A program made the position numbers and the translations under genes. This document shows, piece after piece, positions 2,291-30,506 of a stretch of DNA of 47,957 nucleotides. The notes below the pieces were generated by a model. That model was not told where the DNA came from and did not search any database. It saw only the letters and a program-made list of their open reading frames with translations. Numbering within the stretch: position 1 is the first letter of the stretch; each line of letters begins with the position of its first letter. Origin of the DNA: Gammaproteobacteria bacterium (GTDB lineage Bacteria > Pseudomonadota > Gammaproteobacteria > Steroidobacterales > Steroidobacteraceae); contig JAURLT010000154.1 in NCBI GenBank assembly GCA_030831085.1, positions 1 to 47,957 of the forward strand, read 5' to 3'.

Positions 2291-2812
2291 CTAAGACTTG
2301 AGCAAATCCTTCAACCCTGCAAACGGCCGCTGGCGAGGCTCTTCCTCCGCGGGAACGTCCGTCGCTACCTCGCGGCCGCCACCACAACCGTCGGCGCCCT
2401 GCTCGTGCCGCGCAACCAGAGGCACTGCCAGCAGGGACTCTTCCTCGATCAATTCCACGACCTCAAGCCATCCGGCCTGGACTGGATAGGCTTCTGCCTC
2501 GCCCGGCTCAGCGCCGGACTCCTCACTCCCCTCCTCCACGAACACCAGTCGACTGGACCCGGCCAGGACCTGTTCGTAGGGCCGCAGGCAACGCTGGCAC
2601 TGCAGGGTCAACGAGCCGGTAATTTCCAGGTCGCACCCAAACCGCCCATCACCCGCCGCGCTGAAACTGAGCACGGCATCGACCCATCCGGTCCCGTCCA
2701 GCCCGGCCTCGGCGAGCCTCGGCAGCTCCGACGCGGGATAATGGCGCCGGATGACCTGACCCTCGGCAGCCAACGCGTTCACGTCCAACCGCTCGTGCCC
2801 GGACCCATACAT
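2291..2812 (-). CDS. yceD: YceD/DUF177 family protein
   Basis: A 173-aa acidic protein with the family signature [12 protein letters not shown] around residue 72 and an E-rich C-terminal half ending [12 protein letters not shown]. YceD proteins are almost always encoded directly before rpmF and have been linked to 23S rRNA metabolism in bacteria and plants; the molecular activity is not settled. The ATG at 2812 lies only about 9 bases after the -10 box of a near-consensus promoter, so the transcript may be leaderless or nearly so. A GTG at codon 11 is an alternative start without a clear ribosome-binding site. Confidence 0.92.
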
Positions 2813-2821
2813 GGGCCGCGT

Positions 2822-2850
2822 ATAATAGGGTTGCGGGGCCCCTCTGTCAA
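2822..2850 (-). promoter_or_regulatory. Sigma-70 promoter for yceD-rpmF-fabH
   Basis: On the minus strand, TTGACA (2845-2850) is followed after exactly 17 bp by TATTAT (2822-2827). This is the best promoter match in the left part of the window and stands out against GC-rich surroundings. The expected transcription start falls at about 2813-2816, at or next to the yceD ATG. Confidence 0.75.
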
Positions 2851-2894
2851 AGAGAAACAGGCCTCAAATCCTTGTTTTTGAAGGTCGTTGAAAC

Positions 2895-3485
2895 GTGACC
2901 CACCCCCTTATCCTGGCCTCCGGTTCCGCTTATCGGCAAGCCCTGCTGGCCCGCCTTGGCCTGCCCTTCGAGGTGGTCGTGGCAGGGATCGATGAGTCGG
3001 GGCGCCCGGGAGAAGCGCCTGCCGAGCTGGTTCGGCGCCTGGCGCAGGACAAGGCCTCTGCGGTAGCGATGCAACGCCCGGAGGCCTGCATCATCGGCTC
3101 TGACCAACTGGCCGTCTGCGGCAAGCGCATCCTGGGCAAGCCGGGCAGCGAGGCGCGCTGCGTCGAGCAGTTGCTGTCCTGCAGCGAACGGGTGGTTGAA
3201 TTCCTGACCGCCGTGGTGCTGGTCTCGCCAGCAACCGGCGCGGCGGCTCTGCACATCGATGCCACCCAGGTGCACTTTCGCCGTCTGGGGCGAGCCGAGG
3301 TGGAGCGCTACGTTGCGCTCGAGCGACCCCTCGATTGCGCCGGCGGGTTCAAGTGCGAGGGCCTCGGTATCGTGCTGTTCGAGTCCATCCGCAGCCAGGA
3401 TCCGACGGCCCTTATCGGCCTGCCGATGATCTGGCTGGCTGGCGCGCTGCGCGAGGCCGGTTTCGACCCGCTCGCCACTCCCTAG
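2895..3485 (+). CDS. yceF: Maf/YceF-type nucleotide pyrophosphatase
   Basis: A house-cleaning pyrophosphatase; the YceF branch hydrolyses 7-methyl-GTP. The 196-aa product begins (GTG start) with PLILASGSAYRQALL, the Maf phosphate-binding loop, and contains IIGSDQLAV at about 66-74, where the Asp is catalytic, and DCAGGFKCEGLG at about 148-159. The position between yceD and rluC matches the E. coli yceF neighbourhood, which supports the YceF rather than the YhdE branch. Its stop codon overlaps that of rluC in the shared tetranucleotide CTAG. Confidence 0.92.
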   Translation: MTHPLILASGSAYRQALLARLGLPFEVVVAGIDESGRPGEAPAELVRRLAQDKASAVAMQRPEACIIGSDQLAVCGKRILGKPGSEARCVEQLLSCSERVVEFLTAVVLVSPATGAAALHIDATQVHFRRLGRAEVERYVALERPLDCAGGFKCEGLGIVLFESIRSQDPTALIGLPMIWLAGALREAGFDPLATP

Positions 3486-4429
3486 CGCAAGCGGGAAAGC
3501 ACGCCCTCGAGGTCCGCCGGCAGTGGAGAGGTCAACTCGCAGCGCCGGCCGGTATCGGGCCACTGGAACTCAAGCCGGGTGGCATGCAGGAACAGTCGCC
3601 GCAACCCGGCTTCCCGCAGGCGCTGGTTGAATTCACGCTCACCGTACTTGTCGTCACCGGCCACCGGATGCCCGGAATAGGCCGCATGCACGCGGATCTG
3701 GTGGGTCCGGCCGGTCTCGAGATCCACCTGCATGAGGGTGGCCAGGTCACCGAAACGCTCCAGAGGCTCGAACACACTGACCGACGGCTTGCCATCGACA
3801 TGGACCCTGACCACGCGTTCGCCACCCTGACGGTGACTGGTGGCCAGCGGCAGGTCCAGACGTTTGCGCCCGAGTCGCCAGCGCCCCTTGACCAGCGCAA
3901 GATAACGTTTGGCCACGGCGCCCTCGCGCAGCAGTGCGTGCAGGTGACGCAGGGCTACACCACCCTTGGCGACCAGGAGCAGGCCGCTGGTGTCCCGATC
4001 GAGCCGGTGAGCCAGTTCCAGGCGCACATCCGGGCGGCTCGCCCGCAAGGCTTCGATCACCCCGAAGGCGAGGCCCGAACCACCGTGCACCGCCAGCCCG
4101 CTGGGCTTGTCGACGACGATCAGACGATCGTCCTCGTAAACGACCCGCGCTTCAACGCCAGCCGCCATGCGTTCGCCCGGCTCGGACTGGCCAGAGGCGG
4201 ATTCCTCCTGCCTGACCGGCGGTATCCGAACCCGATCGCCAGCGGCGAGGCGAAGCTCCGGCTTGGCCCGCTTGCCGTTCACGCGCACTTCGCCACGCCT
4301 CAGCAGGCGATAGACATGACTGCGGGGCACCCCCTTCAACTCGCGCAGCAGCAGGTTGTCGAGTCGCTGACCAGCGTCGGAGGCGTCAACCTCGACCTGC
4401 CGCACCCCTCCAATTCGGTTCCCTAACAT
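3482..4429 (-). CDS. rluC: 23S rRNA pseudouridine synthase RluC
   Basis: Isomerises uridines in 23S rRNA (955, 2504 and 2580 in E. coli). The 315-aa protein has an N-terminal S4 RNA-binding domain (about 20-70, RLDNLLLRELKGVPRSHVYR) and an RsuA/RluA catalytic domain with HRLDRDTSG at 141-149; Asp144 is the catalytic residue, at the same number as in E. coli RluC. The RTHQIRVH motif is also present. It is divergent from rne, as in E. coli, and convergent with yceF, sharing the last four bases. Confidence 0.95.
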   Translation of the reverse strand: MLGNRIGGVRQVEVDASDAGQRLDNLLLRELKGVPRSHVYRLLRRGEVRVNGKRAKPELRLAAGDRVRIPPVRQEESASGQSEPGERMAAGVEARVVYEDDRLIVVDKPSGLAVHGGSGLAFGVIEALRASRPDVRLELAHRLDRDTSGLLLVAKGGVALRHLHALLREGAVAKRYLALVKGRWRLGRKRLDLPLATSHRQGGERVVRVHVDGKPSVSVFEPLERFGDLATLMQVDLETGRTHQIRVHAAYSGHPVAGDDKYGEREFNQRLREAGLRRLFLHATRLEFQWPDTGRRCELTSPLPADLEGVLSRLR

Positions 4430-4430
4430 A

Positions 4431-4460
4431 TTGATTTTCTGTAACGTATTCCGTTATGAT
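4431..4460 (+). promoter_or_regulatory. Promoter of rne
   Basis: TTGATT (4431-4436) and TATGAT (4455-4460) are separated by 18 bp, within a locally AT-rich stretch between the divergent rluC and rne genes. Transcription from here gives a leader of roughly 280 bases before the rne start. Confidence 0.6.
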
Positions 4461-4746
4461 CCACAGCGGTCGCAGGGCAAGCGATGACCGCAAGGTCTAA
4501 CCGCCCGGCCCCAGTCGATAGCGCGGCCCCCCGTGAGACCACTCCGGGCAGGCGCCGCATGTTAGTTGGTCCTGGTGAACCAGGCCATCGCCCGGCCGAA
4601 AGTCTGGACCCGCGCCCCGAGAGGCGAGGTCCGTGGAAGAGTACAGAGCTCCCAAGGCATGCAACTTCCCCCGTACATAGCCACCGGCGCAAGCCGGCAG
4701 GATAGAGGTCCAGACTCGCAGGCCCCCACGTCAACGGATGGGGACC
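4461..4746 (+). promoter_or_regulatory. Long structured 5' leader of rne
   Basis: No gene is seen between the promoter and rne. The stretch contains a perfect 10-nt inverted repeat, AGTCTGGACC (4601-4610) and GGTCCAGACT (4707-4716), that would close a large domain. Inside it is a hairpin CCGGC-GCAA-GCCGG (4684-4697) capped by a GNRA-type tetraloop, and just before it a hairpin CTGG-TGAA-CCAG (4572-4583). In E. coli the roughly 360-nt rne leader folds into hairpins that RNase E binds to control its own mRNA. This leader could do the same, but I cannot confirm primary-sequence homology to the rne5 RNA family. Confidence 0.55.
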
Positions 4747-7251: not shown

Positions 7252-7284
7252 TGAGGGCCGGGCCTGTGAAGGGCCCGGCGCCTC
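7252..7284. terminator. Strong hairpin between convergent rne and ptpA
   Basis: GAGG-GCCGGGCC, a 7-base loop, GGCCCGGC and CCTC form a long GC stem. It begins seven bases after the rne stop and runs into the ptpA stop codon. There is no clear T tract, so it may act as a bidirectional terminator or as a 3'-end stabiliser. Confidence 0.55.
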
Positions 7285-7753
7285 ACCGCTTGAGCTCGGC
7301 CAGAAGACCCCGTGAGGCAGCCTCGACCAGATCGAGGACCTGCTCGAACCCCGCAGCACCGCCGTAATAGGGATCTGGCACCTCCCGATGCCCCGACTGG
7401 GGAGCGTAGTCCATGAACAGGCGGACGCGCGCCGTGTGAACGGTGGGTGCCATGTTCTCCAGGTGCGTGAGGTTGGCTTCGTCCATGGCCACCAGCAGGT
7501 CGAAGGCATGAAAGTCCTCGACGCTCACCTGGCGCGCCCTGAGGTGTCCCATTTCCACGCCTCGCCGGCGAGCCGCCTCGATCGTGCGCCGATCCGGTGG
7601 GTCACCGATGTGATAGCCATGGGTGCCCGCTGAATCGACGTGCACCTGCAGGCCCCTGCCCTCCTCCTCCAGCACCCGACGGAACACCGCCTCGGCCGTG
7701 GGTGACCGGCAGATGTTGCCCATGCACACAAAAAGTATTTTAGATGAAGACAT
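7283..7753 (-). CDS. ptpA: Low-molecular-weight protein-tyrosine phosphatase with island-derived N-terminus
   Basis: A 156-aa cytoplasmic phosphatase. The P-loop VCMGNICRS gives Cys10 and Arg16, and the general acid is Asp127 in VPDPYYGG. The first codons (M-S-S-S-K-I-L-F-V) are AT-rich and unlike the GC-rich rest. A second copy of the gene start (M-R-I-L-F-V-C-M-G-N) lies at 27541-27588, joined by a 13-bp identity across the P-loop codons. I infer that a 19.8-kb island inserted here and supplied a replacement gene start, so the protein stays complete. Its promoter must now lie in island DNA. The ribosome-binding site before this ATG is poor. Confidence 0.93.
   Translation of the reverse strand: MSSSKILFVCMGNICRSPTAEAVFRRVLEEEGRGLQVHVDSAGTHGYHIGDPPDRRTIEAARRRGVEMGHLRARQVSVEDFHAFDLLVAMDEANLTHLENMAPTVHTARVRLFMDYAPQSGHREVPDPYYGGAAGFEQVLDLVEAASRGLLAELKR
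7714..7726. repeat. Left attachment site of the island (13-bp core)
   Basis: TGTTGCCCATGCA, identical to 27558-27570. On the minus strand it is TGCATGGGCAACA, the codons for Cys-Met-Gly-Asn of the phosphatase P-loop. Beyond the core the two copies keep coding for L-F-V with different codons, as expected when an element carries its own version of the target gene start. Confidence 0.85.
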
Positions 7754-7778: not shown

Positions 7779-7853
7779 TATCTCCGACGGTATCTCCTGA
7801 TATCCCCTAAAATCCTCAAAGCGCAGGGTGTTGTATCCAGTCCTTGTATCCAG
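7779..7853 (+). repeat. Phased TATC-box repeats at left island end
   Basis: TATCTCC at 7779 and 7791 and TATCCCC at 7801 are followed by two exact copies of TTGTATCCAG at 7831-7840 and 7844-7853, so the boxes recur every 10 to 13 bases with one longer gap. Similar boxes occur at the right end (27502-27522). They resemble arm-type binding sites of tyrosine integrases. The function is inferred from repetition and position only. Confidence 0.5.
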
Positions 7854-7860
7854 AGGCCAT

Positions 7861-8958
7861 ATGTCGCTATCCGACGTTACCGTCAAGAGCCTCCGCCCCA
7901 AGGCTGGAGACTACTGGCGAGCCGATACCAACGCCAAGGGCGAAAACCCACACTCTTTGTACCTCCGAGTAAGGGCTACGGGCAAGAAGGTCTGGGTCCT
8001 ACGTCGCATGCGCGACGGCAAGCTGACCAACGTCACCCTTGGACGGTACCCGGCACTCACGCTCAACAAGGCCCGGAAGAAAGCACGCGACATCCTCGAG
8101 GGAACCGCCGATCCAAAGAGCCTAAAGGCCGTCGCAGACGAGTGGTTCACAATGAGAATCCGGGGCAAATATCGTCGCCCTCGTCAGGTGCTCCACTACC
8201 TTGACCACATTCCCGCAACGATAGGGGCAAAACTCATTCACGATGTTGACCGCCGCGAGATTCACCGTGAACTGGTCAACTACGCTCAGACTCGTGGACC
8301 CGTAGCAGCGGCGCGGTTTTTGGCAATTTATAAACAGATGTTCCAGTACGCAGCCGCTGCCGGATACCTCCCCGACTCTCCGCTCTCACAGATGACCGCG
8401 AGGGACATTGGCTATGTCGAGAGGCCCCGTGACCGAGTGTTAAGCGACAACGAGATCAGGGCGATCTGGATTACAGACAGCTCACATACGCCGTTACTTA
8501 GGTTCCTGCTGCTTACCGGCCAGCGAATCGGCGAAGCCCAGCGTATGACCTGGGGCCACGTTAACTTCGACCGCTGGGTGATCCCGAGGGAACACAGCAA
8601 GAACAAGAAGGCGCACTGGGTTGCACTGTCACCGAAAGCAATCGCCCTGCTTGAGTCGCTACCAAAGAAATCGAACCTGGTATTCGGCACCGTCAGTAAC
8701 ACGGCAGTCCAGGCATGGGTCCGCCGCTGGCAGAAAGACGCGCCGGACGCATGGACTCCTCACGACCTGCGGAGAACAATGGCGACACGCATGAATGATC
8801 TTGGCATCGGTCCGCACATCGTCGAGAAGATCCTGAATCATTCCCTGCAAGGCGTGATGGCGGTTTACAACCGCGCCGAATATGAGAAGGAGCGGATCGG
8901 AGCGATGCAGCGATGGGCCGATGAACTCGACCGCCTTCTAAAGGCTTGTCCCAAATGA
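7861..8958 (+). CDS. int: P4-type tyrosine integrase of the island
   Basis: Site-specific recombinase, 365 aa. The N-terminal DUF4102-like arm-binding domain (about 1-85) contains SLYLRVRATGKKVWVLRRMRDGK-type sequence and the LGRYPALTLNKAR motif. The catalytic domain shows Arg222 (TGQRIGEAQRM), His301 and Arg304 (HDLRRT), His327 (ILNHS) and Tyr336 (VYNRAEY). The ATG at 7861 is preferred over an in-frame GTG at 7828, which lies in the repeat boxes. The gene sits beside the left attachment site, the usual place for the integrase of such an island. Its stop overlaps the next start (ATGA). Confidence 0.95.
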   Translation: MSLSDVTVKSLRPKAGDYWRADTNAKGENPHSLYLRVRATGKKVWVLRRMRDGKLTNVTLGRYPALTLNKARKKARDILEGTADPKSLKAVADEWFTMRIRGKYRRPRQVLHYLDHIPATIGAKLIHDVDRREIHRELVNYAQTRGPVAAARFLAIYKQMFQYAAAAGYLPDSPLSQMTARDIGYVERPRDRVLSDNEIRAIWITDSSHTPLLRFLLLTGQRIGEAQRMTWGHVNFDRWVIPREHSKNKKAHWVALSPKAIALLESLPKKSNLVFGTVSNTAVQAWVRRWQKDAPDAWTPHDLRRTMATRMNDLGIGPHIVEKILNHSLQGVMAVYNRAEYEKERIGAMQRWADELDRLLKACPK

Positions 8959-9392
8959 CTACAGACAAGAAACCGAAGATCGTCTTGCCATTCTTCATGT
9001 TCGAACGATCTCGACGACGCCCGAATACGAAGTCCAGAGATGCGTTGATTGCTTTGGACTATTGGACCCGGGTCTGGAAGATGCCGGAACCACGGCGGTG
9101 GGGCTACTCGGGCAAATTCGAGTTAGCGGTCGCCTCGGCGTGGAAACCCCACAAGGTCACGCCGGAAACCGTAAGACGCTGCCGTCGGCAGTTTCATAAG
9201 GACTGCCAGCAGATGATGCACTACTTTGCGAATTTCCTCGAGGGACTCGCAAAGACTGGCGTTGAGATGACGGTAGAAGAATTTTTCAGCGCACTTGAGA
9301 AAGGCATCTCTCAGCGGCGACGTTACCTTGAAGGAACTCAGGGATTCTACATTCGTATCTACGATCCAGAGATGAAAAAGCGGTACGGGTGA
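8955..9392 (+). CDS. Unknown basic protein coupled to the integrase
   Basis: A 145-aa product with no family I recognise. It is rich in Arg and Lys near the N-terminus (FERSRRRPNTKSRD) and has aromatic clusters (DYWTRVWKMPEPRRWGY) and a predicted helical C-terminal half. There is no signal peptide or membrane segment. The start overlaps the integrase stop by four bases, so it is likely translated from the same mRNA and could have an accessory role in recombination; this is a guess from position. Confidence 0.75.
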   Translation: MTTDKKPKIVLPFFMFERSRRRPNTKSRDALIALDYWTRVWKMPEPRRWGYSGKFELAVASAWKPHKVTPETVRRCRRQFHKDCQQMMHYFANFLEGLAKTGVEMTVEEFFSALEKGISQRRRYLEGTQGFYIRIYDPEMKKRYG

Positions 9393-9498: not shown

Positions 9499-9532
9499 GA
9501 CCGGACACTGAAACCACTAGAGGAGTCCGGTC
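9499..9532 (+). promoter_or_regulatory. Inverted repeat enclosing the ribosome-binding site of the excisionase gene
   Basis: GACCGGAC (9499-9506) and GTCCGGTC (9525-9532) are perfect 8-nt complements separated by 18 bases. The right arm abuts the ATG at 9533, and the Shine-Dalgarno GAGGAG overlaps the loop and right arm. It may be a protein operator just downstream of the -10 box or an RNA hairpin that limits translation. Confidence 0.5.
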
Positions 9533-9742
9533 ATGTCATTCAAGCCCCTACGAGTTCCTGTTGAGGAGGGAGCCCGCCTACTAGGCATCTCACGCCCGAC
9601 TATATTCCGCCGCATCCAACGTGGCGAGATCTCAGCGATTCGCGATGGTCGGCGCACACTGATTGCTATGTCAGAGTTAGAGCGGTACGCCGCCCTAGTC
9701 TCGTTACCACCATCGAATCCTGGCAGCGGGCGGCTCCCATGA
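9533..9742 (+). CDS. Excisionase/AlpA-like helix-turn-helix protein
   Basis: A 69-aa MerR-type HTH_17 protein: VEEGARLLGISRPTIFRRIQ forms the helix-turn-helix and wing, followed by GEISAIRDGRRTLIAMSELERY, the usual shape of excisionase-family proteins. Such proteins bend DNA at the attachment site and favour excision, and often regulate transcription. It is the first gene of a four-gene run with ATGA overlaps and has a good ribosome-binding site (GAGGAG). Confidence 0.82.
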   Translation: MSFKPLRVPVEEGARLLGISRPTIFRRIQRGEISAIRDGRRTLIAMSELERYAALVSLPPSNPGSGRLP

Positions 9743-10047
9743 CTCCCGAAATCTGTCCCGCTCAGTCGAAGAGCAAGCCCAGTCTGCGGGCGGCAATCAA
9801 CGCCAAGTGCAAAGACTGCACCTACGATCCTCTGTCGGGCGGCGGCACCTGGCGCGAACAGGTTGCACAGTGTAGTTCCGTCAACTGTCCACTCTGGCCC
9901 GTCCGTCCGGCACCAATTTCAGGGCTGTTCGCCAACCCTTGCCGTGATCCCGAGGTTGTGCCCCAGGAATGGCTCAAGTTACCTGCTGGATTGGCCGTCT
10001 CGCCCCATCCATCGGATGAACACCCGCAGGGGAATAGCAGGGTATGA
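9739..10047 (+). CDS. Phage/island-type Cys-motif protein
   Basis: A 102-aa protein of unknown function with a conserved-looking core: INAKCKDCTYDP, then GTWREQVAQC, then VNCPLWPVRP. The two CxxC-like elements and two further cysteines suggest a small zinc-binding fold. Proteins with this core occur in phages and integrated elements of proteobacteria, usually near replication genes. The start overlaps the excisionase stop, and the end overlaps the next gene by four bases. Confidence 0.75.
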   Translation: MTPEICPAQSKSKPSLRAAINAKCKDCTYDPLSGGGTWREQVAQCSSVNCPLWPVRPAPISGLFANPCRDPEVVPQEWLKLPAGLAVSPHPSDEHPQGNSRV

Positions 10048-10685
10048 CCAAGGCTCCGTCTTTCGTGATGGCATGGAAGCGGGCCTTCCTTTCGCCGGCG
10101 GGACCCAGACCGCTGACGCGATTAGTTCTGGCGGCGATGGCGATGCGGATGAAGCCAGACGGTAGCGGATGTTTCATCGGCGCTCGCGGCCTAGCCAAGT
10201 TGACCGGCCTCGATAAGAGCACCACCGCCGAACATCGAATCTTGGCGGCTGATGGTGGCTGGGTGATCCCCCCACCCAACATGCACGCACCCAAAGCGGA
10301 ATGGCTTCCGGCAATACCTCCACACGCACAAGTGTCCGGCAAAGGTGGACAGTCGGACGAAAAACAGCTGTCCGGTTCCAGGGGCCCAGCTGTCCGTGAT
10401 GAGAGGCAGAACTGTCCGGTCTCAGCAGATGAACTGTCCCGCCAGGCCGGACATATCTCCTTCTTATCTCCTTCTAATCTCCTTAATAACTCTGGAAGCG
10501 CAAAAAGCGCTCTCGGAGTTGAGGAAAAGAAACGCCTCATCCGCGATTGGGTAAATCGGCCCGACACACGTAGAACTTACGATTGCGCAAACACGGCACT
10601 ACGGGTGCCAGAGAATTGGCGCTTTGCCGGATTCGAGAACTTCGTCAAAGAGGTTTGGCGAGAAATCGAGAGGACTCCGAAATGA
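10044..10685 (+). CDS. Putative replication initiator with winged-helix N-terminus
   Basis: A 213-aa protein. Residues about 20-75 (RLVLAAMAMRMKPDGSGCFIG, then ARGLAKLTGLDKSTTAEHRIL) look like the winged-helix domain of lambda-O-type replication proteins, which read 'few conditions, many genomes' style HTH motifs. A Ser/Gly/Gln-rich linker (about 95-150) follows and a C-terminal region with RDWVNRPDTRRTYDCANTAL. The DNA encoding the linker carries an iteron array and an AT-rich tract, the layout of lambda O, where the origin lies inside the initiator gene. The role is inferred from this layout; I do not recognise a specific family. Confidence 0.6.
   Translation: MTKAPSFVMAWKRAFLSPAGPRPLTRLVLAAMAMRMKPDGSGCFIGARGLAKLTGLDKSTTAEHRILAADGGWVIPPPNMHAPKAEWLPAIPPHAQVSGKGGQSDEKQLSGSRGPAVRDERQNCPVSADELSRQAGHISFLSPSNLLNNSGSAKSALGVEEKKRLIRDWVNRPDTRRTYDCANTALRVPENWRFAGFENFVKEVWREIERTPK
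10329..10491. other. Putative replication origin: 22-bp iterons plus AT-rich tract
   Basis: TGTCC boxes start at 10369, 10391, 10413 and 10435, exactly 22 bp apart, each in the context (C/G)A(G/A)CTGTCC. A further direct copy is at 10333, and inverted copies are at 10347-10353 (GGACAGT) and 10447-10453 (CCGGACA). Immediately after comes an AT-rich pyrimidine tract with ATCTCCTT at 10455, 10466 and 10477, exactly 11 bp apart. Iterons at two-turn spacing next to an AT-rich repeat tract are the hallmarks of an initiator-bound origin with an unwinding element. It lies wholly inside the putative initiator gene. Confidence 0.65.
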
Positions 10686-10906
10686 CGGAAAACTCAACTT
10701 CGGGCGATAAGCCCGAGTCTCCGAAGTACCACCCCAGCCGGACCCCTGAGCAGTGGCGGGCGTATCACCGGGCGTACTACCGGCAACATGCAGAACGCAG
10801 GAGACAGCAGGCCAGGAACTCCTACTGGGGAAAGGTACTGGGAGATCCCTCTGGAGAACGCAGTTTGCAGGGTCTGATTAACGCGTTTTTGAGAGGAAAG
10901 TTTTAG
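10682..10906 (+). CDS. Small basic protein at the end of the replication operon
   Basis: A 74-aa protein with a Tyr/Arg/His-rich middle (WRAYHRAYYRQHAERRRQQA), of a kind seen in small phage proteins with no assigned function. The start overlaps the previous stop (ATGA), so it belongs to the same operon. The charge suggests nucleic-acid binding, which is inference only. Confidence 0.65.
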   Translation: MTENSTSGDKPESPKYHPSRTPEQWRAYHRAYYRQHAERRRQQARNSYWGKVLGDPSGERSLQGLINAFLRGKF

Positions 10907-14095: not shown

Positions 14096-14731
14096 ATGGG
14101 ACAAGTCATTGATCTGCCACGTCGCCGCAAGCGGGCCCCAATCGCCGTAAATGGGAAAGTTCCTCCAAAGCGTCGGGCCAACCGCGAGGTCCGCTCCCGC
14201 GAGTACCTGACCCCGACCGAGGTCGAGCGGCTGGTTAAGGCGGTGGGGGCTATGGGAAGGCACCCTGGGCGGGACCAGACCCTGCTGACCCTCATGTACC
14301 GGCACGGCCTGCGGGTGACGGAGGCCGTCTCCCTGCGCTGGGACCAGGTGGACCTCAAGGCGGGCCTGCTGCACGTCAATCGGCTCAAGAACGGGGTGGC
14401 TTCGACCCATCCCCTCCGGGGACCTGAGTTACGCAAGCTCCGCCAGCTGCGCCGCGACTACCCCGACAGCCCCTATCTGTTCGTCTCCGAGCGCGGAGGC
14501 CCCATGACTGCCAGCAACGTCAGGAAGCTCGTCACCCGGGCTGGGGAAACCGCCAAGCTCAAGTTCCCGGTCCATCCCCATATGCTCCGGCACGCCTGCG
14601 GTTACAAGCTGGCCAACGATGGCCACGATACCCGGGCGCTACAGCACTACCTGGGGCACAAGAACATCAACCACACGGTCCGGTATACGGAGATGGCCCC
14701 GGATCGGTTTAAGGGGTTCTGGAAGGATTGA
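14096..14731 (+). CDS. Short tyrosine recombinase (FimB/XerD-like catalytic domain)
   Basis: A 211-aa recombinase lacking the usual N-terminal core-binding domain; a basic tail (RRRKRAPIAVNGKVPPKRR) precedes the catalytic domain. The active site is complete: Arg73 (RHGLRVTEA), Lys98, His162 and Arg165 (HPHMLRHACG), His188 (YLGHKN) and Tyr197 (TVRYTEM). The size is like FimB/FimE inversion recombinases. It has its own strong promoter and an AGAGG ribosome-binding site. It is divergent from the HNH gene and lies 320 bp before the first tRNA-Phe half repeat, so it may act on those repeats; this is inference. Confidence 0.88.
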   Translation: MGQVIDLPRRRKRAPIAVNGKVPPKRRANREVRSREYLTPTEVERLVKAVGAMGRHPGRDQTLLTLMYRHGLRVTEAVSLRWDQVDLKAGLLHVNRLKNGVASTHPLRGPELRKLRQLRRDYPDSPYLFVSERGGPMTASNVRKLVTRAGETAKLKFPVHPHMLRHACGYKLANDGHDTRALQHYLGHKNINHTVRYTEMAPDRFKGFWKD

Positions 14732-15054: not shown

Positions 15055-15185
15055 GCCAGGGTCGGAATCGAACCAACGACACGCGGATTTTCAGTACAGA
15101 AGAGAGTCGGGTCTGGGGCGACCAGGTCGAAGACCGTCACGGGGTCCCGTCCAAGTCGACCGAGCCGTCCGCGGGAGCCATGGCC
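15055..15185 (-). repeat. 131-bp direct repeat, copy 1, with tRNA-Phe 3' half
   Basis: Matches 26067-26197 without gaps at a constant offset of 11,012 bp, with 11 differences. The first 45 bp and last 47 bp are identical and all differences lie in the middle (15100-15138). On the minus strand, 15055-15094 reads as the 3' half of tRNA-Phe from the anticodon loop (CTGAAAA) through a good T-arm (GTTGG-TTCGATT-CCGAC). The acceptor end is cut after CCTGGC, so no CCA remains. Confidence 0.85.
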
Positions 15186-22109: not shown

Positions 22110-23397
22110 GCGCAAGGAGAAGCAACCCGAGCAGGAGGAAAATAATCGAGACACCGAAGACGCCCGCCGTCTGGTCGTCGAGTAACGCCGTCGTTGTTGC
22201 CACCAGCAGCGGTGCCGCAAAACTCGAAGCGCGCCCGACCATAACGTAGAGCCCGAAGAACTCGCCCAGCCGATCCGGTGGCGATAGGCTAACCATCATG
22301 GTCCGGCTACTGGCAAGGATGATGCCCACGCAACCGCTGGCAATCACTGCCAACGCCAGAAACATCCGGTCGTGCACCGAGCCGAACAGCGCGGACGCCG
22401 CAGCGAGCGTCTCACCGGTCGGCATGATCAGCAACATCAACGAGGCGACGAACAGCATCAAGCCAATACCCACCGCCAGCACGCGCTTCGATCCGTAGCG
22501 TCGATCGAGCGAGCCGGCAACGAGCGCACTGCCGCTGCTCACCAGCAGGCCAAGCAGCCCGAAAATCGAGATCTCGGCTGCGCGCCACTGCAGCCTGGAG
22601 GACGCCAGGATGGCGATGAACGAGAACAGGCCCATCATGCCGTCCCAGTAAGCCATACGTGCGAGCAGGAAGCGGCCCACGCCCGGGATCCTGACGACGT
22701 CGCGTAGAGAGTTCCTCAGGCGCCGCCAGCTCTCGTGGGACGTCTCGAGCCATGAGCGAGCCTCGGCTGGATAGTCCGGACAGTAAAGCAGCAACGGCAG
22801 CATGAACACCACCAGCCAGAGGCCACAGAGCACTGAGGCAATGCGCTGGACCGTCGTCGAGACCTCGTCCGCGGAAACCCCGGTTCTCGCGGCTACTAGC
22901 ACGCCACCGAGGTAGATCAGGCTGGCCAAGAAACCGAGGCTCACAGACAGGCCGCTCAGGCGACCGACGCCCTCCTTGTTGGTGACCCGAAGTACCATAC
23001 TGTCGCTGAAGATCCGCGACAACTCGACGGCAAGCTGTGTCCCGGCGACCGAAGCCAGGACCCAGATAAAATGTCCCGGCTCAGACGTCGCCCACCACAG
23101 GCTAGTCATCCCTCCGGCCACGCCAGCCATGCTGGCCACGATCCACGGCTTGCGCCGGCCGGTGCTGTCGGCCGCCGCGCCGGCCAGCGGGCTCAGGAAC
23201 ACCAGGGCGGCGCTCGCGATCGAAATGCCGTAGCCCCACAGGACCGTGCCACGGATCGGGTCGGCTACAACGGCTGACACGAAAAACGGCGGAAAGATCA
23301 GGCTGAGGACAATCGAGAAGAATGGCTCGCGGGCCCAGTCGGCCAACGCCCACGACCACTGGGCTCGGGACGTCGCCCAAAGGCGTTGTCGAGTCAT
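22087..23397 (-). CDS. MFS transporter, UMF1/Atg22-like
   Basis: A 436-aa, roughly 12-segment transporter of a different MFS branch from its neighbour. It begins MTRQRLWATSRAQWSWALAD, with W-A-L-A-D-W-A-R-E-P-F-F as in the UMF1 family, and has AGAAADSTGRRKPWI in the loop after segment 2. The start at 23397 overlaps the stop of the CopD-like gene (ATGA). Two unrelated exporters or importers in one operon suggest substrate and product, or uptake and efflux, which is inference. Confidence 0.85.
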   Translation of the reverse strand: MTRQRLWATSRAQWSWALADWAREPFFSIVLSLIFPPFFVSAVVADPIRGTVLWGYGISIASAALVFLSPLAGAAADSTGRRKPWIVASMAGVAGGMTSLWWATSEPGHFIWVLASVAGTQLAVELSRIFSDSMVLRVTNKEGVGRLSGLSVSLGFLASLIYLGGVLVAARTGVSADEVSTTVQRIASVLCGLWLVVFMLPLLLYCPDYPAEARSWLETSHESWRRLRNSLRDVVRIPGVGRFLLARMAYWDGMMGLFSFIAILASSRLQWRAAEISIFGLLGLLVSSGSALVAGSLDRRYGSKRVLAVGIGLMLFVASLMLLIMPTGETLAAASALFGSVHDRMFLALAVIASGCVGIILASSRTMMVSLSPPDRLGEFFGLYVMVGRASSFAAPLLVATTTALLDDQTAGVFGVSIIFLLLGLLLLARVPTHHR

Positions 23398-24059
23398 ATG
23401 AACGCGGCGACACCCAGGACGGCCATGACTACTGAAAGCGACCACATGAAGTACGCCACATATTTGGCGCGTTGCAGGGTGCGCAGGAATGATGCATCCA
23501 CCTCAGGATCAGGACCGCCGCGTGCGAGCTTCGCAAAACCAACGACCCAGTCCTTCATCATCCTACGCAGTATGAGACCCACGACGATCATAATGCCGAA
23601 GACCGCGAGTTTCAGGGCGATGAAGAGCGGCGCTACCGGGCCACCGGTCACCGCCGAGTACAAGCCGACCAGGATCAGAAGCGGCGCCAGCGCCACGCGG
23701 ATCCACTTGTCCGCGTTGCTCATCCGGTTCCCCGTCGGGGTACCGGAGCGCCGGTAGCCGGTGACGTTGATGACGAGCCACGTGACTGCTGCAATCCACA
23801 CCACCGCCATGAAGGCCGGCGACCAGGGCACGCGGCCGTAGGCCGTGGCGAGCTGCAGGCCGACCGGCAGCAACAACGTAAACGAGATGCGCGGCAACAG
23901 GTCGATACGGAAGGCGGCCACCAGGAAGCGGCGGCGCTCGTCGAGTGACAGCTTAGGATCGGCGACGTAGTGGGAGTTGACATAGACGCCCCAGTCCGCG
24001 CCAAGCCAGTAAGCAAAGAGCAGGACGTGCGCCACGACGAGCAGTTGATAGGTAGTCAT
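23394..24059 (-). CDS. CopD-like multi-pass membrane protein (copy 2)
   Basis: A 221-aa inner-membrane protein with about six hydrophobic segments, paralogous to the protein at 15761-16429: VAHVLLFAYWLGADWGVYVN and DLLPRISFTLLLPVGLQLAT match in order and spacing. A cytoplasmic loop holds RRSGTPTGNRMSNADKW. It lies 12 bp after the unknown protein and overlaps the MFS gene by four bases, so it is firmly part of the operon. Confidence 0.75.
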   Translation of the reverse strand: MTTYQLLVVAHVLLFAYWLGADWGVYVNSHYVADPKLSLDERRRFLVAAFRIDLLPRISFTLLLPVGLQLATAYGRVPWSPAFMAVVWIAAVTWLVINVTGYRRSGTPTGNRMSNADKWIRVALAPLLILVGLYSAVTGGPVAPLFIALKLAVFGIMIVVGLILRRMMKDWVVGFAKLARGGPDPEVDASFLRTLQRAKYVAYFMWSLSVVMAVLGVAAFI

Positions 24060-26044: not shown

Positions 26045-26365
26045 TTAGGAAACATCGGAAGTGGTGGCCAGGGTCGGAATCGAACCAACGACACGCGGAT
26101 TTTCAGTACAGGAGAGAGTCGGGCTCGGTGCCAGGAGGCCGAAGACCGGGACGGGGTCCCGTCCAAGTCGACCGAGCCGTCCGCGGGAGCCATGGCCCTT
26201 CAGGATGGGGGTATCGATCAACAAATAGACGCCTACAGCTATGGGAAGTAGGACGATCAGCCACCATAGTTCTACGATGATGGCTAGGCCGAATATGAGG
26301 GCGAGAATCCCCCCAGCCAGGACCAGCACGGCAAGAACAATTCCGGGTGCGATATCAATCGCCAT
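26045..26365 (-). pseudogene. Small two-segment membrane protein running into the tRNA repeat
   Basis: The first 55 residues form two hydrophobic segments (GIVLAVLVLAGGILALIF; VELWWLIVLLPIAVGVYLLI). From about residue 57 the frame reads through the 131-bp repeat and tRNA half (ENPRVVGSIPTLA is the usual translation of such tRNA ends). The C-terminus is therefore probably a fusion created when the repeat arrived. No good ribosome-binding site is visible, so expression is doubtful. Confidence 0.4.
26062..26197 (-). repeat. 131-bp direct repeat, copy 2, with tRNA-Phe 3' half including CCA
   Basis: The partner of 15055-15185; here the tRNA half is more complete. On the minus strand, 26062-26106 runs from the anticodon loop CTGAAAA through the T-arm to the acceptor end CCTGGCCACCA, so the natural tRNA 3' terminus is at 26062. 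The 5' half (D-arm and 5' acceptor strand) is missing and the anticodon stem does not pair, so it is not a functional tRNA. The far 47 bp, identical in both copies, include the palindrome GACGGG-GT-CCCGTC. Confidence 0.85.
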
Positions 26366-26374
26366 AGTTAAAGG

Positions 26375-26809
26375 TTAGAGAAATGGGCATCGGCCAACGA
26401 CCATTGCGACGTCACCGGATGGCCTTTCATCCCCCTTAACTAGGAGCCAAGCGTCATCAAAGACCGCGTAGAACTCCAACTTGTCGAGGCGAAATACAAG
26501 CTCTGGTATTCCTTGGCACCAGAGGACGCCGCCTTTGTTGAAATTAGGACACGTTGATAGGGCTGCGTCTTCGCCCAATTCGACAACCGCGTAAACTTGG
26601 TAGGCGGCATCTGGCTGCATCGGGATATCTTGGCCATTCTTTATCGGGCGCATTACGAGCTTCTTCTCCGTCTCAAATATCGCCGGCACCCAATGCCCTG
26701 TTGTCTTGTTGAACGTGAATCCGGACATCCCATCCGAAACGCACAACCAACCATCCGCGCTTGCCGGAAGTGCGACTAACAGCCCAATTAGCAAGGCAAT
26801 GACGCGCAT
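26375..26809 (-). CDS. Small secreted protein of unknown function
   Basis: A 144-aa protein with a signal peptide (MRVIALLIGLLVALPASADG). The mature part has C-V-S-D-G-M-S-G-F near its N-terminus and cysteines at STCPNF, LWCQGI and GRCPF, so it is probably disulfide-bonded in the periplasm. The start at 26809 is preferred over the ATG two codons upstream because GGGAG lies six bases before it. No family recognised. It is outside the tRNA-repeat block but inside the island. Confidence 0.7.
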   Translation of the reverse strand: MRVIALLIGLLVALPASADGWLCVSDGMSGFTFNKTTGHWVPAIFETEKKLVMRPIKNGQDIPMQPDAAYQVYAVVELGEDAALSTCPNFNKGGVLWCQGIPELVFRLDKLEFYAVFDDAWLLVKGDERPSGDVAMVVGRCPFL

Positions 26810-27007
26810 AGCCATCTCCCTATGACGCAACCATCGTAAACGGTCACAGACTGGTTTCCAGCCCAATACGGGACATTCTCACGGCCCAGGGCGGGCGCTG
26901 GAGTGGCAGGCTGTGCGTGGCACCTCCCCGGTGCCGCTGGCCGTCCGCGTGTCGTCCTCTCTTTTGGTGGCTCACCGCATGGCCCTGGCTGGCGCTACGC
27001 TTTGGCC

Positions 27008-27540: not shown

Positions 27541-27588
27541 TTATAAAAGTATCGAACTGTTGCCCATGCAGACGAACAGGATCCTCAT
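27541..27588 (-). pseudogene. ptpA: Displaced original start of ptpA
   Basis: Reads ATG then R-I-L-F-V-C-M-G-N, followed by five island-derived codons and TAA. The first ten residues equal the conserved N-terminus of low-molecular-weight phosphatases. The codons (AGG ATC CTG TTC GTC) are GC-rich like the chromosome, unlike the present gene start at 7753. A Shine-Dalgarno GGAG lies about eight bases upstream, inside the end of the SnoaL-like gene. It marks the ancestral gene start cut off by the island. Confidence 0.85.
27558..27570. repeat. Right attachment site of the island (13-bp core)
   Basis: TGTTGCCCATGCA, identical to 7714-7726, within the displaced P-loop codons of ptpA. It defines the right boundary of the 19.8-kb island. 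Confidence 0.85.
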
Positions 27589-27591
27589 GAC

Positions 27592-27978
27592 CTACTCCAC
27601 CGGACGCAATACGTAGCGACTCACCAGTTGGTCTCGCAACTCGAACCAGCCAAAAAACGGTATTTCACGCTCGGGGCCCTCGACCGCTGCCAGGAAAGCC
27701 CCCTGGCAGCCATCGCACACCAACTGCCTGATGCGGTGCCGAATGCCTGCCTCGGCCAGTCTCGCCACCCGCTCTGCCAGCAGGCCGTATACGGCCTGTC
27801 GACCTTTCAGCCGGGTAGGCTCGGCACGCCGGCGGTAGTCATGGTGCTCCCAGACCTGCACATGTGACCAGTCGATGTCAGGATGCAGCGCCAGCACGGC
27901 CGAGGTCATGTCACCACGATCAATCGAATCGTAATAGGTGGCCTGCAACAGGTGACGGGCAAGTTCGGTTGCGTTCAT
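27592..27978 (-). CDS. SnoaL/NTF2-like protein
   Basis: A 128-aa cone-fold protein: LARHLLQATYYDSIDRGDMT opens the usual NTF2-like helix, and VLALHPDIDWSHVQVWEHHD and the C-terminal strands follow. Members include small hydrolases, isomerases and ligand-binding proteins; no function can be assigned. The start at 27978 has GGAGG six bases upstream; an ATG at 27984 overlaps the dehydrogenase stop (ATGA) but lies against that site. Its stop is four bases from the displaced ptpA start, so the pair formed an operon before the island arrived. Confidence 0.8.
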   Translation of the reverse strand: MNATELARHLLQATYYDSIDRGDMTSAVLALHPDIDWSHVQVWEHHDYRRRAEPTRLKGRQAVYGLLAERVARLAEAGIRHRIRQLVCDGCQGAFLAAVEGPEREIPFFGWFELRDQLVSRYVLRPVE

Positions 27979-27980
27979 GG

Positions 27981-29027
27981 TCATCCTCCCGGGTTCCAGA
28001 CTAGCACCTGCGCGGGATTGACGAGGCCATGCTCGGACTTGCGGGCAGTGAGCCGGAAGGCTTCGGGCACCCGCTCCAGACCCGGCAATACGTGGGTCAC
28101 CATCGGCCGCACGTCGAGGCGCCCGTCACCGAGCCAGGCGAGCGTCCGCTGGAAAATGGCCTCGCTCATCAGGCTGGGAAACAGGTAACGAATGCCGCGA
28201 AAACGAAACAGCCGATAGGGCAGGAAGGTGCCTTCACCATGGAAGGCCACGCCGACCACCGTGCCCGCATCGCATACCATCCGCGCCGCCTGCTCCAGCG
28301 TGGTATCCCCGGCCAGGCCCTGCTCAGGCGGCCCACCGGCGGTCTCGAACACCACGTCAGCGCCAAGGCCGGTTGTGGCCTCTCGCACCGCTGCCACCGG
28401 ATCACACCGGCTGGCGTCGAAGCAGAGGTCGGCACCGAGTTGCCGAGCGAGCGACAGTGACTGCGCACGGCGGGCGATCGCGATGACCCGCGCGGATCCA
28501 GCGGCGCGCGCTGCCTGCAGGCAACTCAGACCCATCGCGCCCTGGCCGATGACCACCACTGAACGGCCAGCAAGGTCGCCCGCAGCATCAACGGCTGCTA
28601 CCGCGTCGGTCAGCGCCTGGACCACCGCACCCTCGCTGAAGGACACGCTGGCTGGCAAACGCCCGAGCAGCGTGGCAGGCACCTCGATGTACTCGGCAAA
28701 AGCGCCGGGCATGTCGAAGCCCACGATGCCTGCGGGGTGTGAACCACGCGCCGCCACCCGATCTCCCACCGCCAACCGGTCTACGCCCTCGCCGAGGGCG
28801 GTAACCACTCCGGAAAATTCATGACCAAACAGCGGCTGCGGACCCTGAGCCAGCAAGCTTGCTACCTGCTCGTGCAGGTAGGTCTTCGCGCCGTCGAACA
28901 GCAGTGTCTCGGTGATGCTCGGCTGCACTACGCAGACCCGCACCACCGCCCAGCCCGGTCGCGGACAAGGCTCGGGCAGCTGCTCGAGCCTCATGTCGCC
29001 GTAGCCATGAACGCGCCAGCCGAACAC
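27981..29027 (-). CDS. Medium-chain dehydrogenase/reductase without canonical zinc ligands
   Basis: A 348-aa MDR-family oxidoreductase with the GroES-like domain ([20 protein letters not shown], His69-Glu70) and a Rossmann fold ([20 protein letters not shown], 158-177). The zinc Cys of the usual CGxCGTD position is replaced ([10 protein letters not shown], Ser37), and the structural-zinc four-Cys loop is absent ([11 protein letters not shown]). It may use a different metal site or none, as in quinone-reductase-like members. Substrate unknown. It is first in an operon with the SnoaL-like gene and formerly ptpA. A palindrome TCGCCA-GACAA-TGGCGA (29038-29054) lies between it and the divergent yqhA-like gene. 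Confidence 0.88.
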
Positions 29028-29066
29028 CGATCAGCAGTCGCCAGACAATGGCGATACAATCAGCCG

Positions 29067-29567
29067 ATGGAAAGCTTCATCGAACGCCTGCTGTTCGCCT
29101 GCCGCTGGCTGCTGGCGCCGCTGTACCTGGGTTTGTCGCTGGCGCTGATGGCGCTGGGATTCAAGTTCTTCCAGGAGGCCTGGCACGTGCTCACCCACGC
29201 GCTGATCTCGACCGAGGCACAACTGGTGCTGACCGTGCTCGCCATGATCGACATCGTGCTGGTGGGCAGCCTGATCGTGATGGTGATGTTCTCGGGCTAC
29301 GAGAATTTCGTCTCGCGCATCGACGTCAAGAACGGCGAATCGCTCGGCTGGCTGGGCAAGCTCGATGCAGGCACCCTCAAGCTGAAGGTTGCAGCATCGA
29401 TTGTCGCCATTTCCAGTATCCACCTGCTGCGGGTGTTCATGGACGCGCAGCAGATCGCCAACGACAAGATCATGTGGTACGTGATCCTGCACATGACCTT
29501 CGTGCTGTCGGCGCTGCTGCTCGGCGTTCTGGACCGACTGTCCTTCGCAGCGCACCGGGAACACTGA
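29067..29567 (+). CDS. YqhA/UPF0114 membrane protein
   Basis: A 166-aa inner-membrane protein with three or four hydrophobic segments and the family core [20 protein letters not shown] followed by ENFVSRID and [20 protein letters not shown]. The family is widespread in proteobacteria and has no established function. The gene lies alone between the divergent dehydrogenase and the convergent kdsB. Confidence 0.9.
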
Positions 29568-29578
29568 GCCGCAGCTCA
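29565..29578. terminator. Compact hairpin joining the stops of yqhA-like and kdsB
   Basis: TGAGC-CGCA-GCTCA: each arm carries one of the two convergent stop codons. It is short and lacks a T tract, so a terminator role is only possible. Confidence 0.3.
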
Positions 29579-30313
29579 CCGGCTTCCGACCAACGACCTG
29601 ACCCGCTCAAGGTCCTCGGTCGTGTCCACCCCAGGGCCGGGCGCTGCCATGGCCTCCGCCACCGCAATCCCCATGCCGTGGTGCAAGGCCCGAAGTTGCT
29701 CCAGGCGCTCGCGAAGTTCCATTTCACAGGGCGGTAGGGAAGCCAGGCGCAACAGCGCTGCGACCCGGTACGCGTAGAGGCCAATGTGGCGCCAGGTATC
29801 CGTCAGGCCACGATCACCATCGCGGTCCAGGGGAACGGGCGCACGACTGAACAACAAGGCCCGACCATCAGCCCGGCGCACCACCTTGACCACTGCCGGG
29901 TTCCGGAACTCTTCCTGGGTGGTGATGGCCGTACACAAGGTAGCCAGGTCGGCGCCCGGATCTGCCGCCAGCAGCCCCGCTACCTGCCCGACCAGCACCG
30001 GGGGCAGCAGGGGTTCATCACCCTGCAGGTTGACCACCACTGTATTTCCAGCCCAACCGCGGCGCGCTGCCACTTCCGCGATGCGGTCCGAACCGGTGGA
30101 ATGTGCCGGCGAAGTCATCTCCACTTGTGCATCGAGGGCTACGCAAGCCTCGCGAATACGCTCGTCGTCTGTTGCGACTATCACCTCGCCAGCACCCGCC
30201 TCCAGCGCTCGCTGGTAGACGTGCAGGATCATCGGCCGCCCCATGATGTCCGCCAACGGCTTGCCGGGAAGGCGAGACGACGCATACCGAGCGGGGATGA
30301 CAACCTTGAACAC
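29576..30313 (-). CDS. kdsB: 3-deoxy-manno-octulosonate cytidylyltransferase
   Basis: Activates Kdo as CMP-Kdo for lipopolysaccharide core synthesis in the cytoplasm. The 245-aa protein opens with FKVVIPARYASSRLPGKPLA, the nucleotidyltransferase signature, and has VVVNLQGDEPLLPP at about 93-106 and a TWRHIGLYAYR motif. It lies three bases after ycaR, in the same operon as lpxK and msbA, which supply and move lipid A. Confidence 0.97.
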   Translation of the reverse strand: MFKVVIPARYASSRLPGKPLADIMGRPMILHVYQRALEAGAGEVIVATDDERIREACVALDAQVEMTSPAHSTGSDRIAEVAARRGWAGNTVVVNLQGDEPLLPPVLVGQVAGLLAADPGADLATLCTAITTQEEFRNPAVVKVVRRADGRALLFSRAPVPLDRDGDRGLTDTWRHIGLYAYRVAALLRLASLPPCEMELRERLEQLRALHHGMGIAVAEAMAAPGPGVDTTEDLERVRSLVGSR

Positions 30314-30316
30314 GCC

Positions 30317-30505
30317 TCAGCGCGCCAGCACCGGATCATCGGCGGACAGTTCGCTCGCCTCTTCCTGAAGCATCACGGGAATCCCCTCACGTACAGGATA
30401 AGCCAAGCGATCCGCTCGACAGACCAGGCGCTCGGGATCCGTCAGGTAGAGCAGCGGACCCTTGCAGATCGGGCACGCAAGGATATCCAACAGTTTCTTG
30501 TCCAA
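30317..30505 (-). CDS. ycaR: Trm112/YcaR-family zinc-ribbon protein
   Basis: A 62-aa protein. The TTG start at 30505 gives M-D-K-K-L-L-D-I-L-A-C-P-I-C-K, matching the E. coli YcaR start, with GGAGG four bases upstream; a GTG five codons earlier is less likely. It contains CPIC and a single later Cys (VCRADRLAYPVREGIPVML). Eukaryotic and archaeal Trm112 proteins stabilise methyltransferases; the bacterial role is unclear. The lpxK-ycaR-kdsB order is conserved in gammaproteobacteria. Confidence 0.93.
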   Translation of the reverse strand: MDKKLLDILACPICKGPLLYLTDPERLVCRADRLAYPVREGIPVMLQEEASELSADDPVLAR

Positions 30506-30506
30506 G

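Follow-up and report, generated by a model that had tools for sequence, protein, structure and literature searches.

Positions 10333-10492 probably constitute a replication origin of the lambda O/ori kind, located inside the gene of its own initiator (10044-10685) and carried on an integrative island of 19.8 kb. The window, i.e., the complete 47,957-nt stretch of DNA that was analysed, is part of contig C122 in a genome of 2.52 Mb and 181 contigs. Judging from its gene and repeat content, the island can probably copy itself once it is out of the chromosome.

Repeat array and AT-rich tract within the initiator-like gene

The pentamer TGTCC occurs on the plus strand at 10333, 10369, 10391, 10413 and 10435 and on the minus strand at 10347 and 10449. 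Four copies of the longer CTGTCC, at 10368, 10390, 10412 and 10434, are spaced by exactly 22 bp and fall in frames 0, 1, 2 and 0, and three copies of ATCTCCTT, at 10455, 10466 and 10477, are spaced by exactly 11 bp and fall in frames 0, 2 and 1. The earlier note had reported boxes at an exact 22-bp spacing with further direct and inverted copies around them, followed at once by 11-bp-spaced repeats in an AT-rich tract, and all of these positions were confirmed, the boxes on both strands. The features of the gene and its immediate surroundings are as follows.

10044-10685, plus strand: replication initiator-like gene, 213 aa, frame open (models, homologues)
10333-10351, no strand: outer iteron, a 19-bp dyad TGTCC-N9-GGACA (dyad search)
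10368-10417, plus strand: CTGTCC iteron boxes at 10368, 10390 and 10412, in 22-bp register
10434-10453, no strand: fourth CTGTCC (10434), which opens the second 19-bp dyad, 10435-10453
10453-10492, no strand: putative unwinding element, AT-rich, with the three 11-bp repeats ATCTCCTT (sequence and AT profile)
10497-10511, no strand: small perfect inverted repeat AGCGC-AAAAA-GCGCT to the right of the AT-rich element, seen by eye in the sequence
10682-10906, plus strand: small ORF (74 aa) that begins within the last bases of the initiator gene, with no Pfam or PHROG family

Only two exact TGTCC-N9-GGACA dyads exist in the window, both made by the outer boxes (10333-10351 and 10435-10453), and the middle three boxes are half-sites without a full dyad. 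At 67.5% AT, the 40 bp of 10453-10492 form the gene's AT peak; values as high occur in 5 of 602 segments in the gene and in 108 of 19,804 in the island. Since neither 22 nor 11 is a multiple of three, the copies fall in different frames and encode different peptides, and the cycling of both repeats through all three frames indicates that selection acts on the DNA and not on the protein.

A chance origin of the repeats was ruled out by synonymous-codon and dinucleotide shuffles of the gene. Four collinear 6-mers with a period of 15-30 bp appeared in 0/2000 shuffles of either kind; four collinear 5-mers were reached in 1/2000 synonymous-codon and 0/2000 dinucleotide shuffles, and the same counts were obtained for three collinear 8-mers with a period of 9-14 bp. 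A cruder measure, the copies of one 7-mer within 170 bp, was weaker, with 11 of 200 shuffles matching the window. Throughout the window's own genome (2.52 Mb, 181 contigs), three TGTCC at 22-bp spacing are unique to this array (two overlapping matches, against none for the backwards control). The presence of two TGTCC-N9-GGACA dyads in the window was reached by 0/100 shuffles; the genome holds one besides these two, and the backwards control also gives one. The looser GTCC-N9-GGAC is not unusual in the window, two being reached in 36/100 shuffles. Whole-gene counting of 7-5-7 dyads, in which 22/500 shuffles equal the window and 80/500 equal lambda, is a weak test and was not used as proof.

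The initiator-like protein

The predicted layout of the 213-aa protein comprises a winged helix (about aa 1-95), a disordered linker (about 89-155) and a helical C-domain (about 156-210). Modelled from three sequences, the N-domain takes the form of a winged helix, with a helix-turn-helix plus wing; its best mean pLDDT is 87.6, two of the five models being confident and the remaining three reaching 45-47. The idea that the N-terminus looks like a winged helix is thus borne out by this domain model. The whole-protein model is poor (pLDDT 50.8) and was kept out of the fold search; residues 89-155 lie below 50 in it, and the helical C-domain is folded at 156-210. Taken together with the sequence, it places the repeats in the DNA that encodes the disordered linker, in agreement with the previous proposal that all of them lie in one gene and encode such a linker.

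Matches of the window protein to known families are weak: HTH_36 gives E 0.0032, under the Pfam cut-off, and the PHROG replication initiation family phrog_6643 gives E 0.037. Fold matches in the PDB are generic winged helices (best E 0.012, Z 7-9), plasmid initiator domains among them, and this fold is not specific and is found in many repressors as well. Among viral fold matches, most are phage HTH or unnamed proteins, and one, at rank 32, is an annotated phage replication protein O (TM 0.68, E 0.0038). A sequence search of solved structures likewise yielded weak matches, mainly generic HTH regulators, with a best E of 0.012. The window protein has no tblastn match in phages or plasmids at E 0.01 and none in viral contigs by pattern plus tblastn, and no helicase or loader gene was recognised in the initiator cassette by Pfam and PHROG scans.

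Homologues and persistence of the DNA layout

Counting the window's own genome in each search, the protein search matched 2/98 relatives and 2/369 class genomes, and the profile searches matched 9/396 and 12/396 order genomes and 2/369 class genomes. The locus L004/L025, whose record is titled Salinisphaera japonica, matches the window domain at 38% over residues 6-90 (3e-15), and an ORF named from its sequence as a DnaB-like helicase lies downstream of its initiator. L004 in turn matches 48 phage records; of the 20 that were listed, 6 are hypothetical proteins and the other 14 carry a replication, O or primosomal annotation. It aligns with phage Itty13 over residues 29-248 (9e-8) and with KS9 gp46 over residues 8-99 (1e-5), and its lowest phage E-values (1e-9) cover residues 159-227 only, outside the shared domain. 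Through these alignments, L004 would tie the window domain to phage O indirectly. In a domain tree of 16 rows, the window groups with L026 and L025 (support 96/98), and neither in-gene nor after-gene origins come out as the earlier state.

Periodicity was scored against 200 shuffles in 13 initiator genes, each with 200 bp downstream; L016, where the contig ends before the array, and L022, a weak match (E 8e-4), stand outside this count. It lies above all 200 shuffles in 7 of the 13 (window, L004, L017, L021, L049, L050 and L052), with periods of 22 in the window, L017, L049 and L050, 23 in L004, 21 in L052 and 13 in L021. Marginal values were obtained for L048 and L019 (6/200 shuffles as high in each), L020 (3/200) and L051 (11/200), and L003a and L003b, the two genes of L003/L026, are unremarkable (51/200 and 104/200). 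Among control genes, to which no downstream stretch was added, 2/29 reached 2/200 shuffles or fewer. For copies of 7-mers, no shuffle in 200 was as high in L004, L019, L020, L050, L051 and L052; the number as high was 4 in L021, 6 in L017, 11 in the window, 37 in L049, 199 in L048 and all 200 for both L003 genes. L026 has three GTCC-N9-GGAC dyads, a count reached by 0/200 shuffles. The repeat sequences vary from locus to locus, and the spacing is often 21-23 bp.

In all 13 initiator genes, the 30-bp stretch with the highest AT content is found no more than about 70 bp beyond the array, L004 having a tie with another place; for this test, array ends were set by hand from the repeat layouts, and the region was the gene plus 200 bp. 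Between L019 and L020, which are 93% identical, differences occur at 0/75 box and 16/90 spacer positions (hypergeometric 3e-5), with boxes defined on L019 after the repeat lists of both had been seen. The linker is poorly conserved among homologues. In the short initiator genes of L017, L021 and L048, a stop codon (TGA, TGA and TAG, respectively) lies inside the first repeat, and in L051 the stop TGA shares two bases with the first repeat, GACCAAG. In all four, the array layout continues past the gene, outside coding DNA, which is a strong argument against a protein reason for the repeats. The check proposed in the earlier note, whether the DNA pattern is kept while the amino acids drift, thus had a favourable outcome, with the layout kept in homologues and the AT peak in place in 13/13; the exception is the pair of L003/L026 copies, whose periodicity does not stand out.

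Next to an intact tRNA-Phe and an integrase, L026 also carries, at 2712-4609, a tandem pair of AlpA-initiator cassettes; the first initiator copy is without most of the helix-turn-helix, and the two copies carry different repeat sequences.

Comparison with phage lambda and viral contigs

The lambda origin maps inside O and consists of 19-bp inverted repeats with an adjoining 40-bp AT-rich region, as described in a passage of PMC5043065. An excerpt of PMC7466680, which deals with Stx-phage iterons, likewise places the iterons and the AT-rich tract mid-O and reports that plasmids with altered iterons and an unchanged O protein gave <10 transformants in the tabulated strains. The lambda sequence was fetched as a control; its CDS 38686-39585, mislabelled in the record, was taken as O from the annotated ori iterons. 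It contains four 18-bp iterons over nt 348-433 (starts 348, 368, 392 and 415), followed by an AT-rich stretch; in the window gene, the boxes span nt 289-409 and the AT-rich tract spans nt 409-449. The putative origin of the window and that of lambda lie at a similar position in the initiator gene, between the DNA-binding and C-terminal parts, with several iterons at 20-24 bp and then the AT-rich tract; for 18-19-bp dyad sites the likeness is partial, the window having two exact 19-bp dyads. The proposal of an in-gene iteron array beside an AT-rich element, as in lambda O, is supported. The two systems differ in other respects: the window iterons are unrelated in sequence to those of lambda, three of the five boxes are half-sites, direct comparison gives no significant similarity in sequence, a P-like gene was not recognised, and the array lies on an integrase-AlpA island instead of in a phage early operon.

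A search of 2.9 million viral contigs for three CTGTCC at 22-bp spacing returned 54 loci, compared with 14 at a 25-bp control spacing, three being common to both. An ORF of at least 80 aa covers the array in 44 of the 54, in 29 clusters. When one representative per cluster was scanned, 9 of the 29 clusters, holding 22 of the 54 loci, gave PHROG matches of initiator-, O-, DnaD-like or replisome organizer type (E <=0.001). The recovery of initiator genes by a motif search indicates that in-gene arrays in winged-helix initiators are an established phage design. The viral-contig initiators have in-gene arrays like that of the window, yet their proteins are not clear relatives, with L102 being the sole viral-contig array protein to match the A3 profile (E 2e-4). 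The architecture is thus not new, as it is already known from lambdoid phages; the present case is a new example, on an island.

Island boundaries, gene content and cargo

The ends of the island and the genes preceding the initiator are as follows.

7714-7726, no strand: attL core TGTTGCCCATGCA, within the 5' coding region of the gene for an LMW protein tyrosine phosphatase (7283-7753, minus strand)
7828-8958, plus strand: tyrosine integrase (Arm-DNA-bind_3 and Phage_integrase; Pfam 4.7e-21, PHROG integrase 4e-64)
8946-9392, plus strand: ORF of 148 aa with no significant family (Pfam, PHROG)
9499-9532, no strand: GACCGGAC and GTCCGGTC as an inverted pair whose right end is at the start codon of AlpA, with the iteron core TGTCCGGT inside it; possible operator
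9533-9742, plus strand: AlpA/MerR-type HTH_17 protein of excisionase/activator type (Pfam HTH_17 3.3e-10; PHROG excisionase and transcriptional regulator 0.0011)
9739-10047, plus strand: small Cys-rich CKDC protein, with relatives in 9 viral loci (45-64% identity)
27558-27570, no strand: attR core, the same 13 bp, with the displaced original start MRILFVCMGN still readable beside it

The 13-bp core TGTTGCCCATGCA occurs in the window only at 7714-7726 and 27558-27570, and host sequence flanks the island to the left of the first core and to the right of the second. The phosphatase gene is present in five of the six genomes of the genus, the window's own included. An empty site is found in the same-genus L039, where this gene runs straight into DNA matching window 27558-31496 at 82%; in L036 and L038, another gene follows the phosphatase and similarity to the window sets in again at 29601, and in L037 no match to the window follows the phosphatase gene. 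Together, the empty site and the att cores delimit an island of roughly 19.8 kb, whose insertion point falls among the codons for the CMGN motif. The left island end brings a new start (MSSSKILFV-CMGN), leaving the old start MRILFV stranded at the right end, and this replacement keeps the phosphatase frame open. The chromosomal island suspected in the initial reading is therefore real, with both ends located by the empty site in L039 and the 13-bp cores. No paper that brings together an integrase, a protein tyrosine phosphatase, attB and a genomic island came out of a literature search.

The CKDC protein is also encoded in L005, L016, L017 and L021, where its gene adjoins AlpA and in most cases precedes the initiator. 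The right part of the island carries, by Pfam, genes for a TonB-dependent receptor, an amidohydrolase, two MFS transporters, a glyoxalase-like protein and LysR. A 131-bp direct repeat (15055-15185 and 26067-26197, 92% identical) resembles part of a tRNA-Phe gene, and its two copies enclose a catabolic segment of 11 kb within the island; a recombinase gene lies at 14096-14731. This repeat may mark a second, nested element. Further searches returned no tRNA and no DnaA box TTATNCACA in the window and, for 7000-28500, no Rfam family that reaches the gathering score. The excised attP junction is absent from the window's own assembly at up to one mismatch, and the left island end has no exact match in viral contigs, where records near the window's genome may be excluded.

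Over the 8,273 bases compared, the L024 record (JAUREI010000049.1), titled Prosthecobacter sp., agrees with the window at every base and in its coordinates. The flanking genes, named from their ORFs as fabH, rpmF, yceD, maf, rluC and rne, are in a gammaproteobacterial order, and L024 is probably a misnamed or mixed MAG.

Upstream of AlpA, GTCCGGTC is found at 9499 (minus) and 9525 (plus), and the iteron core TGTCCGGT occurs three times in the window, at 9500 (minus), 10369 (plus) and 10413 (plus), the last two lying in iterons. The inverted pair would fit autoregulation by the initiator and is offered as a lead. A similar pair is not clear upstream of AlpA in L026, L025, L017, L021, L048 or L019 and is clear in the window only; among these six relatives inspected, L026 alone has a possibly related GGACGTCC motif at that place.

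Comparison with satellite islands

Gram-negative PICIs, as outlined in parts of PMC6092414, carry an integrase, AlpA, a Pri-Rep and, immediately downstream of rep, an iteron origin. With the PICIs portrayed in those parts, such as EcCICFT073, the window island shares an integrase, AlpA, a predicted initiator and a putative iteron/AT-rich origin on the island, with genes in one direction; like them, it combines integrase and AlpA with a specific att site. In place of a Pri-Rep with an origin immediately 3' of rep, it has a 213-aa winged-helix protein with an in-gene array. Two iteron sets flank the AT-rich tract in the PICI origin as the cited parts describe it, whereas the window has one set on one side, and in contrast to PICIs, no packaging genes were seen among 18 ORFs of the window island scanned with Pfam. 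The island thus resembles PICIs in plan but not in initiator type or origin position. The Vibrio PLE, in the portions of PMC8263062 drawn on here, is also a satellite island with its own initiator, RepA, and semi-palindromic iterons; its origin is described there as intergenic, with three iterons of about 30 bp, unlike the putative in-gene origin of the window. Relaxase, packaging and primase genes were not seen among the 18 island ORFs scanned with Pfam, a set that leaves aside, among others, 23394-24059 and 26375-26866. The suggested likeness to phage satellites was not established, as the cargo, without packaging or primase genes among the 18 scanned ORFs, looks catabolic.

Proposed mechanism and alternative explanations

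From the arrangement of genes and repeats, we infer the following course. AlpA and the integrase would excise the island as a circle, and the winged helix of the initiator would bind the TGTCC half-sites and 19-bp dyads in a 22-bp, i.e., roughly two-turn, register. The bound complex would then open the adjacent AT-rich 11-bp repeats, and the C-domain could recruit a host helicase, so that the circle may replicate. The linker would be free to follow the origin DNA because it only tethers two domains.

That the repeats are a mere by-product of a low-complexity protein linker has a negligible probability. A linker predicted to be unstructured is indeed encoded here, but copies whose spacing is not a multiple of three encode different peptides, the pattern is lost in synonymous shuffles, the linker is poorly conserved in homologues, and the layout runs on past the gene in L017, L021, L048 and L051; frame cycling and synonymous shuffles together contradict protein low complexity as the cause. 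A role of the boxes as regulatory operators, or as a copy-control or partition array bound by the winged-helix protein or AlpA with no origin function, is improbable, though less so. Such a role would agree with the recurrence of TGTCCGGT in the inverted pair at the AlpA start and with a fold that many repressors share. However, operators do not need an AT-rich neighbour, yet the AT peak directly follows the array in 13/13 genes, and no promoter-like site was found within the array. Iteron initiators, moreover, commonly use one site for both regulation and origin, which counts against a purely operator function.

A decayed replicon is compatible with an origin in the gene and has an appreciable chance of being correct, although below even: the island would once have replicated and would now be a fixed resident, its initiator gene and array being recent relics. 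The lack of an excised junction in the window's own assembly and of the left end in viral contigs is in line with this possibility, as are the catabolic cargo with the internal 131-bp repeat and the loss of the helix-turn-helix from the first of the two L026 initiator copies. On the other side, the initiator, integrase and AlpA-like frames of the window are open, the two att cores do not differ from each other and the cores of the repeats are exact. An origin of the lambda O/ori kind, placed inside its initiator gene, remains the preferred explanation of 10333-10492.

Implications for a possible replicon family

In this case, a probable lambda-like in-gene origin is placed on a non-phage island with catabolic cargo. 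A broader scheme can be put forward tentatively, and it is rather doubtful at present: a family of chromosomal replicons, composed of an integrase, AlpA, often CKDC and a winged-helix initiator, may possess a portable lambda-like origin whose place is fixed by the winged-helix domain instead of the reading frame. The gene would stop inside the first iteron in some members, and in others, such as the window, the frame would run through the origin into the C-domain. The array and its initiator might diverge together, so that every island would have an origin private to it, which here could amplify a catabolic island after excision. With homologues whose array is either within the gene or directly behind it, the long-standing question of how an origin enters a gene becomes testable, and because the repeat sequence differs from island to island, these loci offer defined pairs for testing initiator-origin specificity.
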